From a bacterium (GTDB lineage Bacteria; Orphanbacterota; Orphanbacteria; Orphanbacterales; Orphanbacteraceae), in the NCBI GenBank assembly GCA_025782575.1, contig JALGYY010000035.1, positions 310,001-374,000 on the forward strand: a DNA stretch of 64,000 nucleotides. The letters run 5' to 3'. The first letter of the stretch is position 1, and each line of letters starts with the position of its first letter. The notes under the pieces are model-generated. The model was not told where the DNA came from. It did not search any database and was given only the letters and a program-made list of their open reading frames with translations. Below, one piece after another: positions 40,138 to 45,848 of the stretch. The translations under genes and the position numbers were made by a program.

Positions 40138-40171
40138 CCGGGATTCAACCCATCAGGAAGGATTCTTGATC

Positions 40172-42589
40172 ATGGCGTATCCGTTCGCGGAGATCGAAAA
40201 GAAGTGGCAGGACCGCTGGGAAAAGACCGGCGCCCACCGGCCGGATATGGAAGAAGCGAAAAAGCCCTTCTACAATCTCATGATGTTTCCCTACCCTTCA
40301 GCCGAGGGGCTTCATGTAGGGAATTTCTTCGCGTTTACAGGATCCGATATTCAGGGGCGGTTTCACCGGATGCTCGGGTATGACGTGTTCGAACCGATCG
40401 GCTTTGACGCCTTCGGGATTCATAGCGAGAACTATGCGATCAAGGTCGGCCTCCACCCCTCGGAACTCGTTCCACGAAACATCAGGAATTTTCGAGACAA
40501 TCAGCTGAAACGAATGGGATCGATGTTCGACTGGTCCCGCCAGATCGATACTACGGATCCTAAGTATTATAAATGGACACAGTGGATCTTCACGACTCTT
40601 CTGAAGAAGGGGCTCGCCGAGCGAAAGAGCGGTCCGGTGAACTGGTGTCCCTCATGCAAAACCGTACTCGCCAACGAACAGGTGATCGACGGGGAGTGCG
40701 AACGCTGTGCAAGTGAAGTGGTGCAGCGCGAGATGGCGCAGTGGTACTTCAAGATCACGAACTACTCCGCCCGGTTATTGGAGAACCTGGACAAGATCGA
40801 CTGGTCGCCGCTTACAATGAACGCGCAGAAGCGCTGGATCGGCCGGAGCGAAGGGGCCGAAGTCCGCTTTCCGATCGCGGGCAGAAGAGATGCGCTCGAA
40901 GTATTTACGACGCGGCCCGATACGATTTTCGGCGCCACCTATATGGTCATCGCGCCGGAACATCCGCTGCTCGATGAGCTGACTACCGATTCCCAGCGGA
41001 GCGAAGTGGAAGCGTATCGTGACCAGGCGGGCAAACGGAACGCCCGCGATCGCATGGATACTGGGCGAGAGAAGACAGGCGTCGCTACCGGATCGAACTG
41101 CATCAACCCTGCCACGAACGAAGAGATCCCGATCTGGGTGAGCGACTATGTGCTGATCACTTACGGCACGGGAGCGATCATGGCGGTGCCGGCGCACGAC
41201 CAACGTGACTTCGAGTTCGCTACCAAGTTCGGACTCCCCATTCGCCAGGTGATCGAACCGGCCGAGGGTGCGGACGGGAGCAGACTGGAATCCGCTTACA
41301 CTGATGAAGGAGTGATGATCTCGTCCGGCCGGTTCGACGGGATGCCGTCATTGGAAGCGATAGGGAAGACTACCGAGTGGCTCGAACAGGAGGGGAGAGG
41401 CAAAAAAGCGATTCAGTTCCGCCTGCATGACTGGTGCGTCTCCCGCCAGCGATATTGGGGACCACCTATTCCGGTCATCCATTGTGAGCAGTGCGGTCCT
41501 ATACCTGTGCCTGACAAAGACCTTCCGGTTCTTCTTCCTGTAACCGACGACTACCAGCCTGACGATTCCGGATTATCGCCTCTTGCGCGGATCGAGTCGT
41601 TCATGAAAACGACCTGTCCGGAGTGCGGCAAAACAGCAAGACGAGACGGCGATGTGCTCGACAATTTTCTGGATTCGGCCTGGTATTTCCTGCGCTACCC
41701 GTCGACCGACAGGAACGACATTCCCATGGACCCGGCCCGCACCAGGAAGTGGCTCCCTGTCGATCTCTATATCGGCGGAAACGAGCATGCCGTGCTTCAC
41801 CTCATGTACACCCGGTTCATCTGCATGGCCCTTCACGATCTCGGCTATCTTGATTTCGAAGAACCGTTTCATCGATTTCGCGCCCACGGCATGATCATCA
41901 AAGACGGCGCCAAGATGAGCAAGTCTCGGGGGAACGTTGTGAACCCGGACAGCTTCATCGACCGGTTCGGAGCGGACACGTTCCGGATGTACCTGATGTT
42001 TCTAGGACCCTATATGGAGGGGGGGGACTTTCAGGACGACGGAATTATCGGCATTCATCGTTTCATGGACCGCACCTGGAAGCTATTTTCCAACTGGCAG
42101 GAAAAAGAGGGGGCCGAGCCCTCCCGGGAGACTCAGTCCGAACTCCACCGGGTGCTCGCCAAAGTGACGGAAGATACGCGGGAACTGAAGTATAACACCG
42201 CCATTGCGGCCCTGATGGAGCTCCTGACAGCCCTCAGGAGGGAGAAAAGCCTGGATCGGGCGACTCTGGAGGCCTATCTGCAGCTATTGGCCCCCTACGC
42301 GCCCCATATGGCCGAGGAGCTGTACGAGAAGCTCGGTAATGAGCGTTCGATATTCGAATCCACGCTCCCCGAGGCCGACCTATCGAAGATCGTCCGTGAT
42401 CTCGTCACGATGGCGGTTCAGGTTGGTGGAAAGATGCGCGGCACTATTGAAACGCCCCCGGGAACGCCCGAAGAGGAGGTCCGGGAGCTTGTCAAAACTG
42501 ATCCCCAGATCGCCAAACACCTCGAAGGGAAAACGGTCGTCAAATGGATCGTCGTGCCGGACAGAATCGTCAATATCGTAGTTCGGTGA
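40172..42589 (+). CDS. leuS: Leucyl-tRNA synthetase
   Basis: About 805 residues, a normal class I LeuRS. The HIGH-type motif is PYPSAEGLHVGN, and the KMSKS loop is KDGAKMSKSRGNV. There are zinc knuckles CPSC and CERC, an editing domain insert with TTRPDTIFGATY, and the C-terminal anticodon-binding domain. ATG at 40172 lies after CAGGAAGGATT; a TTG 6 bases earlier is in frame but unlikely. An AT-rich gap follows. Confidence 0.98.
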   Translation: MAYPFAEIEKKWQDRWEKTGAHRPDMEEAKKPFYNLMMFPYPSAEGLHVGNFFAFTGSDIQGRFHRMLGYDVFEPIGFDAFGIHSENYAIKVGLHPSELVPRNIRNFRDNQLKRMGSMFDWSRQIDTTDPKYYKWTQWIFTTLLKKGLAERKSGPVNWCPSCKTVLANEQVIDGECERCASEVVQREMAQWYFKITNYSARLLENLDKIDWSPLTMNAQKRWIGRSEGAEVRFPIAGRRDALEVFTTRPDTIFGATYMVIAPEHPLLDELTTDSQRSEVEAYRDQAGKRNARDRMDTGREKTGVATGSNCINPATNEEIPIWVSDYVLITYGTGAIMAVPAHDQRDFEFATKFGLPIRQVIEPAEGADGSRLESAYTDEGVMISSGRFDGMPSLEAIGKTTEWLEQEGRGKKAIQFRLHDWCVSRQRYWGPPIPVIHCEQCGPIPVPDKDLPVLLPVTDDYQPDDSGLSPLARIESFMKTTCPECGKTARRDGDVLDNFLDSAWYFLRYPSTDRNDIPMDPARTRKWLPVDLYIGGNEHAVLHLMYTRFICMALHDLGYLDFEEPFHRFRAHGMIIKDGAKMSKSRGNVVNPDSFIDRFGADTFRMYLMFLGPYMEGGDFQDDGIIGIHRFMDRTWKLFSNWQEKEGAEPSRETQSELHRVLAKVTEDTRELKYNTAIAALMELLTALRREKSLDRATLEAYLQLLAPYAPHMAEELYEKLGNERSIFESTLPEADLSKIVRDLVTMAVQVGGKMRGTIETPPGTPEEEVRELVKTDPQIAKHLEGKTVVKWIVVPDRIVNIVVR

Positions 42590-44032: not shown

Positions 44033-44248
44033 TCGAGGAGTATATTCACAAAGCTGCTTGACTGAGTGTTCGCGATAGCCGTTCAATTGTGTATTCCGAT
44101 CGAGCACTCGTAAATCACATCACTTCACTCACTCGGGGCATACGCTCGTCGATCAGACCAGCCTGAGACCAATTCTCATGACATAGGCATTCATGCGGGG
44201 GAGGGCCCCGTATGCCATCTACAGCCCATCGCCCGCATACCCAGCCGC

Positions 44249-44257
44249 TTATCCACT
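44249..44257 (+). other. DnaA-box-like site
   Basis: TTATCCACT, one mismatch from the consensus TTATCCACA. A perfect copy lies on the opposite strand at 44314-44322. Two boxes do not make an origin. Confidence 0.3.
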
Positions 44258-44277
44258 CCCTGTCCACACCACTGCTA

Positions 44278-44305
44278 GGTTTACAGAATATAGATTCTAC
44301 GACAC
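44278..44305 (-). other. Candidate dif site (XerC/XerD chromosome-dimer resolution)
   Basis: A 28-bp unit of 11 + 6 + 11. The plus-strand left arm GGTTTACAGAA matches the reverse complement of the Bacillus subtilis XerD arm (AGTTTACATAA) at 9 of 11 positions. The central six TATAGA differ from TATATA at one. The right arm begins TTCTA, as in the XerC arm TTCTAGGAAGT. The core is an AGAAT/ATTCT inverted repeat. It lies exactly at the reversal of gene direction, where a terminus is expected. Comparison is from memory of known dif sequences; a genome-wide check is required. Confidence 0.45.
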
Positions 44306-44313
44306 TCACGGGA

Positions 44314-44322
44314 TGTGGATAA
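44314..44322 (-). other. DnaA-box-like site (perfect consensus)
   Basis: TGTGGATAA, the reverse complement of TTATCCACA, 9 bases after the dif-like site. Confidence 0.35.
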
Positions 44323-44624
44323 CCAGGCCCCGAATGTACTTAATGTAATACATGAGGCACAGAAAGCCGGCGCAGAAGCCGTTGAAGAGCCTCGGGACGG
44401 CCAAGAGGCGTTGGTTCCGCAGCACCGTGGCCAGGAATGGGCTGAAAGTACGCTTCTACCCGGTGGCGACTACGGAGAAGCGCGCTGTCGTTGTGCACGA
44501 TCGAGTCCTGGGGATCCGATCGGCCCCTATGACGGGACAAGAAAGACGCGGGAAGCCGGAGTCAACGCCCCCCGGAGCCCTCGATTCAATCAACTCCCGA
44601 AAGAGGAATCGGGACGAATAGTTG

Positions 44625-44670
44625 ACCGTTGAGTCGCTCTCAATTGAGAGTCAGGTTTACATAATCCAGG
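44625..44670 (+). repeat. Hairpin repeat, copy 1
   Basis: Contains GAGTCG, a CTCTC/GAGAG stem with an AATT loop, then TCAGGTTTACATAATCC. It shares most positions with copy 2 (45031-45076). The downstream part GGTTTACATAA is also XerD-arm-like. Confidence 0.6.
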
Positions 44671-45030
44671 TGGGAGAGAACGTTTTGTATCAGCGGCGGC
44701 CGGGAAAGCGGCCGTCCATCTGCATGCAATTGTCACCTAGCTGCTCACGGCATTCCCAAGGTCACTTGTGTATCTAATCATACGGTCCACGCCTTGGTCA
44801 CGCAGCAAGCAGCCAGTCCCGGAGGCTGGCTTCGGCCTGCCCCATGACGGCGGATAAGAACCCGTCGAGATCGGCGACCTTGACGCTTCGCCGATGCGGC
44901 TCGGTTCAGTCGACCTTCTGATTACGCTTGATCGATGAGCAGCCTAGTGGGCGGAGCCATGCGTGACGGACCTCACCTCACTGAATTCTGAATGATCTAG
45001 TGGAGTCCGGATCATAACCAGGGCTGGTCT

Positions 45031-45076
45031 ACCGGTGAGTCGCTCCCAGCAAGGGAGTCAGGTTTATATAATCCGG
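45031..45076 (+). repeat. Hairpin repeat, copy 2
   Basis: Same layout and orientation as copy 1, with stem CTCCC/GGGAG and loop AGCAA, then TCAGGTTTATATAATCC. The stem change T-A to C-G is compensatory against copy 1, showing that the hairpin is selected or copied. Confidence 0.6.
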
Positions 45077-45097
45077 ACAGGATTTGTTCGGCCCCGA

Positions 45098-45124
45098 CAA
45101 AAAGCCCGGCTCCAGGGCCGGGCT
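45098..45124 (-). terminator. Rho-independent terminator of the YfgM-like gene
   Basis: On the minus strand an 8-bp stem AGCCCGGC/GCCGGGCT is followed by TTTTT. It lies about 35 bases after the stop of the 45159-45848 gene. Confidence 0.8.
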
Positions 45125-45158
45125 GAATCGGACAATTGTGTGATCCGGCCCCAGTTCT

Positions 45159-45848
45159 TCAGCTGCCGTTGCCGAGTCCCCGTTCGATCCGGGCCTTCTG
45201 CCAGGCGAGCGTAGCGATGTCCATCGGATCAAGATCATCCTCGATCAGCTGACCGAGTGCGTCCCGTGCTTCGTCAAAGCGCTGCCCGTCTACCAGACAC
45301 TGCACGGCCCGATAGGTCAGATGCGCTTTCGTTTCAGGCTCTTTACTGCGAGATGCGAGATCCAGATAGGACTGAGCAGCTTCGACAAGCTTGCCGTCAC
45401 TCTCTTGGAGTGCCGCCACCCCGGATTTGGCCGCAAACCAGATCCGATCGCCCTCTTCACACTTCTCGAGAGCTTCCCGGTACTTACCGCCCGCATCGCC
45501 GTACCGTGCTGAATAATAGTAAGCATCAGCGCAAAGAAGCGCTGCGTAGCCGGCACCTTTATGTTTGGGATGGGAATCGAGGAAAGTGCTGAGACGGAAC
45601 GCGGCTTCCGGGTAGTTTCCTGTCTGGAATAGCCCCGCGCCCTCGCTCAGTTCGGCCGCAGCTTTATTCCTGGACGATATCTGGAATCGGGCGAATAGTG
45701 TACCCACAAGGATAATAGCAACCACTCCGCCTACCGTCAAGAGTACCTGCATCCGGTGTTCCTGGAAGTAATCGGCCGCGTGAAAAGCGGTCGTAACGAA
45801 TTGATCTTCCTTCAGTTGACGCTTTGTGATCCGTTTAGTCGCGGCCAC
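45159..45848 (-). CDS. YfgM-like membrane-anchored TPR protein
   Basis: A 229-residue protein with a basic cytoplasmic N-terminus, one helix (VLLTVGGVVAIILVGTLF, residues about 36-53) and a periplasmic TPR-like domain (FQTGNYPEAAFRLSTFLDSHP and similar repeats). The topology is that of YfgM/TPR_21 proteins, which act as periplasmic chaperone partners near the Sec translocon or BAM in Proteobacteria; function here is inferred. It starts at GTG 45848. It is transcribed towards the strand-switch zone and ends at a terminator. Confidence 0.75.
   Translation of the reverse strand: MAATKRITKRQLKEDQFVTTAFHAADYFQEHRMQVLLTVGGVVAIILVGTLFARFQISSRNKAAAELSEGAGLFQTGNYPEAAFRLSTFLDSHPKHKGAGYAALLCADAYYYSARYGDAGGKYREALEKCEEGDRIWFAAKSGVAALQESDGKLVEAAQSYLDLASRSKEPETKAHLTYRAVQCLVDGQRFDEARDALGQLIEDDLDPMDIATLAWQKARIERGLGNGS

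Follow-up and report, generated by a model that had tools for sequence, protein, structure and literature searches.

In the stretch of DNA analyzed here (the window; 64,000 nucleotides, C13:310001-374000 in a 4.88-Mb genome of 49 contigs), two sets of genes point toward each other across a gap that contains a dif-like sequence, which raises the question of whether replication of the chromosome ends here and what kind of site it ends at. With high confidence, replication of the main chromosome terminates in the gap, and the 28-mer there is the chromosome's dif, an ordinary object. The more interesting part of the site is a set of conserved boxes flanking the 28-mer, which the first-pass annotation had missed.

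Convergent genes and GC skew at the terminus

Gene orientation was counted on greedily called ORFs of at least 130 amino acids. Within the window, 29 of 30 such ORFs left of the site lie on the + strand and 13 of 15 to its right lie on the - strand, and over the complete contig C13 (599,540 bp), on which strand change point and skew were both computed, the counts are 224/269 on the + strand to the left and 120/183 on the - strand to the right. By gene strand, the contig divides best at C13:355159, which is position 45159 of the window. The strand reversal described in the first-pass annotation is therefore real, but its statement that all genes to the left run rightward should read nearly all. 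Seven tRNA genes (window 12733-33144) are likewise all on the + strand and are read in the direction in which replication approaches the terminus.

Cumulative GC skew over full C13 reaches its maximum at C13:354078, 200 bp from the 28-mer; a random position would lie this near the maximum with a probability of about 7e-4, and a mean-shift change point of the skew was placed at 355 kb. The skew is weak, at a few per cent, and block bootstrapping spreads its argmax on C13 over 281-355 kb, so that the 200-bp match is partly luck. The concurrence within about 1 kb of independent signals, namely the skew maximum, the strand change point and the 28-mer, is not luck. The skew maximum lies 2.6 kb from dif in the related genome G002 (100 kb sampled) and 5.3 kb from it in G004 (within 40 kb), and the contig of G001 was too short for a skew reading. 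The dnaA gene and oriC are on another contig, C17, where the cumulative skew has a minimum 17 kb from dnaA, the opposite turn to that at dif. Skew was read over C13 and C17 in full and sampled on the other large contigs, and the extremum of C13 is the one at the site. Contig C24, which carries no dif, showed a skew of +0.044 at one end and -0.041 at the other, possibly as a result of a rearrangement or a local effect.

The gap had been described as non-coding and 1.1 kb long. The only ORF inside it encodes 89 or 105 amino acids, the 89-residue form having no Pfam match, which supports the first part of the description; the length is peculiar to this genome, the counterpart measuring about 0.36-0.42 kb in two relatives. 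Rfam gave one sub-threshold match close to the gap, at E 0.25 and 22 bits where the cut-off is 50, which was put down to chance. In G001 and G002, the two relatives examined for this, leuS is 72-75% identical and lies on the same side of dif, and on the other side G001 has, at the same place, a gene 49% identical to the TPR protein gene of the window. A database search with leuS returned distant matches only, the best of them at 60%, from Bacterium HR30.

A dispersed repeat of about 55 nt, present in 19 copies genome-wide (e.g., C17:10900, C28:32484 and C42:130036), occurs twice in the extra gap DNA of this genome (window 44611-44670 and 45023-45078). These are the C13 copies, both within 0.8 kb of dif, and eight more lie on the dnaA contig. 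The repeat consists of an inverted repeat (CACTCTC-AATT-GAGAGT) followed by CAGGTTTACATAATCTGG, which contains GGTTTACATAAT, the XerD half-site of the phylum. Nothing outside the 55 nt is common to all copies; an identity as attC, pdif or IMEX was rejected, as there is no XerC arm and there are no shared flanks. Near several of the repeats (L027, L032, L033 and L042; contigs C28, C17 and C39) a further dispersed motif, TTCTGGGGACACAATACGNAATA, occurs in both orientations; we guess that it may represent REP-like sequences of a Y1 transposase. Contig C28, which has two copies of the 55-nt repeat, also carries a frameshifted integron integrase gene (C28:104910-105514; L048, L052; above the cut-off of NCBIfam TIGR02249). 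Three tyrosine recombinase genes that closely resemble one another, each of about 290 amino acids (C39:10066, C9:49581 and C12:1909; L045-L047), probably belong to a repeated mobile element at which the assembly breaks; two of them are near contig ends.

Table 1. Features of the terminus region in window coordinates, and dif sequences of the window's genome (G000) and five relatives.
Feature	Position	Strand	Sequence or remark
leuS, leucyl-tRNA synthetase, conserved dif neighbor	40166..42589	+	NCBIfam TIGR00396
Convergent intergenic region at the replication terminus	44033..45158	.	contig-wide strand change point; cumulative GC-skew maximum at 44078
Outer left DnaA-box-like motif	44249..44256	+	TTATCCAC; starts 29 bp before dif; offset -29 in 5/6 genomes
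Inner left DnaA-box-like motif	44260..44268	+	CTGTCCACA; about 10 bp before dif; offset -18 in 6/6 genomes
dif, 28 bp, 11-6-11	44278..44305	+	unique in genome; orthologous sites in five relatives; skew maximum 200 bp off
dif XerD-side arm	44278-44288		GGTTTACAGAA
dif central hexamer	44289-44294		TATAGA
dif XerC-side arm	44295-44305		TTCTACGACAC
Right DnaA-box-like motif	44314..44322	-	TTATCCACA (TGTGGATAA on +); about 9 bp after dif
TPR protein gene, convergent dif neighbor	45159..45848	-	weak Pfam TPR matches
dif of G000 (window)			GGTTTACAGAATATAGATTCTACGACAC
dif of G001			GGTTAACATAATATAGATTCTACGACAT
dif of G002			AGTTTACATAATATAGATTCTACGACAC
dif of G003			TGTTGACATAATATGTATTCTACGACAT
dif of G004			GGTTTACATAATATCGATTATGCGACAT
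dif of G006			GGTTTACATAATACCGATTATGCGACAT

The dif site and its recombination machinery

The 28-bp site with its 11-6-11 layout was found at exactly the coordinates and with exactly the sequence given in the first-pass annotation. It sits in intergenic, non-coding DNA and is the single match in the 4.88-Mb genome at up to three mismatches, a reversed control pattern giving zero matches. The published criteria for dif are a non-coding location, a position near a skew extremum, a conserved XerD arm and a single copy (PMC2731167, PMC3025954), and the 28-mer of the window shows each of these features. The phylum was sampled with seven genomes from one family and five genera. Exactly one dif-equivalent site per genome was identified in six of them (G000, G001, G002, G003, G004 and G006); the seventh, G005, is 82% complete and has no dif site in the set. 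Consensus patterns built from the phylum likewise yield one site per genome, and no better dif was found elsewhere in the 49-contig assembly. The XerD arm is of the conserved TTATGTNAA type. The family consensus of the site is RGTTWACATAATATANATTCTACGACA, from which the window's copy departs by one base in the XerD arm, having G where the other five have T.

The genes expected to act on such a site are on the same contig. XerD (C13:470 kb) scored above the cut-off of the NCBIfam equivalog TIGR02225, and a second recombinase, XerC (C13:174 kb), had its best match to TIGR02224 but fell below the cut-off. FtsK-gamma is encoded at C13:248 kb (FtsK_gamma, E 1.9e-28). A test for FtsK-orienting polar sequences (KOPS), which are G-rich octamers skewed toward dif, found GGAGGGGA (57:7) and GGGAAGGG (49:11) skewed on both arms and not over-represented beyond composition. 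By the proposed mechanism, XerC and XerD, activated by FtsK, would convert chromosome dimers to monomers at the 28-mer.

The window's site shares with the dif-XerCD system of Escherichia coli and Bacillus subtilis the 28-bp length, the 11-6-11 layout, an AT-rich and non-coding setting, a single copy, a position at the skew maximum and a conserved XerD arm, together with encoded XerC, XerD and FtsK-gamma (Carnoy and Roten 2009, PMC2731167; Kono et al. 2011, PMC3025954). With skew maximum, strand change point and unique 28-mer coinciding, the Xer and FtsK-gamma genes present and equivalent sites in five relatives, the earlier reading of this locus as terminus and dif is upheld.

Conserved boxes on both sides of dif

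What sets the window's dif apart from that of E. coli and B. subtilis is that boxes outside the 28-mer are conserved and keep a fixed distance from it; proteobacterial dif sites have been described as highly variable on both sides (Carnoy and Roten 2009, PMC2731167). In the six aligned sites, all from one family, three short words are kept at fixed spacing in intergenic DNA that has otherwise diverged too far to be aligned. Counting the first base of dif as 0, the two left words, of TNTCCAC type, lie 11 bp apart at -18 and -29, and the outer one is missing from G003. The right box contains the 8-mer TTATCCAC on the opposite strand (window 44315-44322), exact in 6/6 genomes, at +37 in G000, G001 and G003, +38 in G002 and +47 in G004 and G006. 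The gap between dif and the right box is thus 9-10 bp in four genomes and 19 bp in two. The boxes are inverted and near-symmetric about the center of dif, and their spacing varies by about one helical turn.

The boxes match the oriC type of the organism, TTWTNCACA, the right one being TTATCCACA as in oriC and the left outer one TTATCCACT. The oriC regions beside dnaA in the phylum bear TTATCCACA, TTATCCACC and TTTTCCACA, and two TTATCCAC boxes stand 53 bp apart in oriC of G000, G001, G002 and G005. As a DnaA box, the inner left word of the window, CTGTCCACA, is weak; in most relatives the same position is TTTTCCACA or NTTTCCACA.

The arrangement is confined to dif in the DNA searched. The 8-mer TTATCCAC occurs 17 times on the 600-kb C13, where three loose boxes fall within 130 bp of one another at dif and at no other place. 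The pattern TCCAC-N6-TCCAC-N(30-75)-GTGGATAA has a single match on C13, the one at dif, and in the contigs examined from G001, G002 and G004 it likewise matches at dif alone; it is absent from C17, and a slightly looser combination is absent from 0.96 Mb sampled on other contigs of the window's genome, so that within the 1.8 Mb of this genome tested the combination occurs nowhere but at dif.

Other phyla were also surveyed. The universal dif core matched 96 of 389 genomes, and the core followed by GTGGATAA 10-40 bp downstream matched only four, all from the window's phylum; G000 and G006 differ from the universal core pattern by one base and fall outside these four. No other phylum among the 389 genomes showed dif with the right box. 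Four of the seven genomes of a second small phylum share with the window the presence of boxes on the XerD side, theirs being TTATCCACA or TTTTCCACA (G106, G229 and G342 from a survey of dif-like sites, G397 from a directed search); unlike the window's phylum, they have boxes mainly on one side and lack the conserved right box. In the same survey of other phyla, a box lay within 70 bp in 8 of 57 dif-like sites with a recognizable XerC arm, three of the eight from one family; with that family excluded, the excess over distant DNA was weak and may be an intergenic effect. Outside the two phyla, the survey gave no convincing excess of boxes at dif-like sites.

Two known arrangements resemble the one described here. 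In cer (ColE1) and psi (pSC101), the Xer core also stands beside sites for other proteins in a fixed arrangement, those in the window being predicted sites. The accessory sequences of cer and psi are about 180 bp long and act with PepA plus ArgR or ArcA (PMC5357621), whereas the window has a chromosomal dif, with a center of 6 bp, between short DnaA-like boxes in inverted orientation. The E. coli loci datA, DARS1 and DARS2 (PMC4585315) likewise have DnaA boxes outside oriC in non-coding DNA, but they are far from dif, whereas the boxes of the window abut dif itself. A search of the open-access literature found no paper on DnaA boxes flanking dif, and as far as that literature shows, the flanking boxes would represent a new variant of the dif system.

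Candidate proteins for the flanking boxes

We infer that some protein binds the flanking boxes. The DnaA of the window's genome retains GGRDHSTVLHACQKV, which we take to be the motif typical of DnaA-box recognition. Because the boxes match the oriC boxes of the same genomes and DnaA keeps this standard motif, DnaA is proposed as the most economical candidate, and it may quite possibly bind them. The six sites come from one family, and the predicted reader of the boxes could be another protein recognizing TNTCCAC.

Such a reader might be an unrelated terminus protein, acting in fork arrest, macrodomain organization or as an accessory to XerCD, whose site resembles a DnaA box by coincidence; this is a real possibility, if a somewhat doubtful one. 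Known Xer sites are indeed aided by flanking accessory sequences for other proteins, as with ArgR and PepA at cer (PMC5357621), and many of the left boxes read TTTCCACACC or CTATCCACC, imperfect as DnaA boxes. However, the invariant right-hand word is also found in oriC of most of the genomes, and the second phylum too has TTATCCACA beside dif.

It is unlikely that dif here is simply ordinary throughout and the boxes are functionless, arising by chance or as an inherited trait of a conserved intergenic region. The sites are from one family and leuS is kept nearby in the two relatives examined, so shared ancestry could explain some of the similarity; yet boxes and spacing persist where the other intergenic DNA has diverged, and two convergent TTATCCAC words within 60 bp of dif would arise by chance with a probability of about 1e-6, as estimated from 17 per 600 kb. 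Highly improbable is a local operon boundary at which the 28-mer is not the terminus site but, for example, the Xer site of an integrated element: two dispersed repeats with an XerD-half-like core do lie within 0.8 kb, but the 600-kb contig as a whole has its skew maximum and its best strand change point here, which contradicts this explanation, and the site is conserved in relatives without the extra gap DNA.

In this phylum dif is embedded in a larger conserved site: inverted TTWTCCAC(A) boxes flank it, each separated from the neighboring Xer arm by roughly one turn of the helix, and on the XerD side a second box follows one turn (11 bp) further out. With DnaA as the reader of these boxes, the bound protein would assist XerCD at dif in an architectural or regulatory role, giving the synapse its shape or setting its timing within the replication cycle; a lesser alternative is that the boxes act as a sink, sequestering DnaA locally near the terminus. 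We tentatively suggest that DnaA may bind symmetrically around dif and take part in or time dimer resolution by XerCD-FtsK, which would physically link the control of initiation to the step that closes the chromosome cycle, and that the association of DnaA boxes with dif may have arisen at least twice. A dif at the terminus is textbook knowledge; what is new, as far as the open-access papers searched show, is the presence of origin-type boxes, helically phased and at fixed distances, on both sides of the Xer arms and phylum-wide. If DnaA binds there, the initiator of replication would be tied to chromosome dimer resolution.
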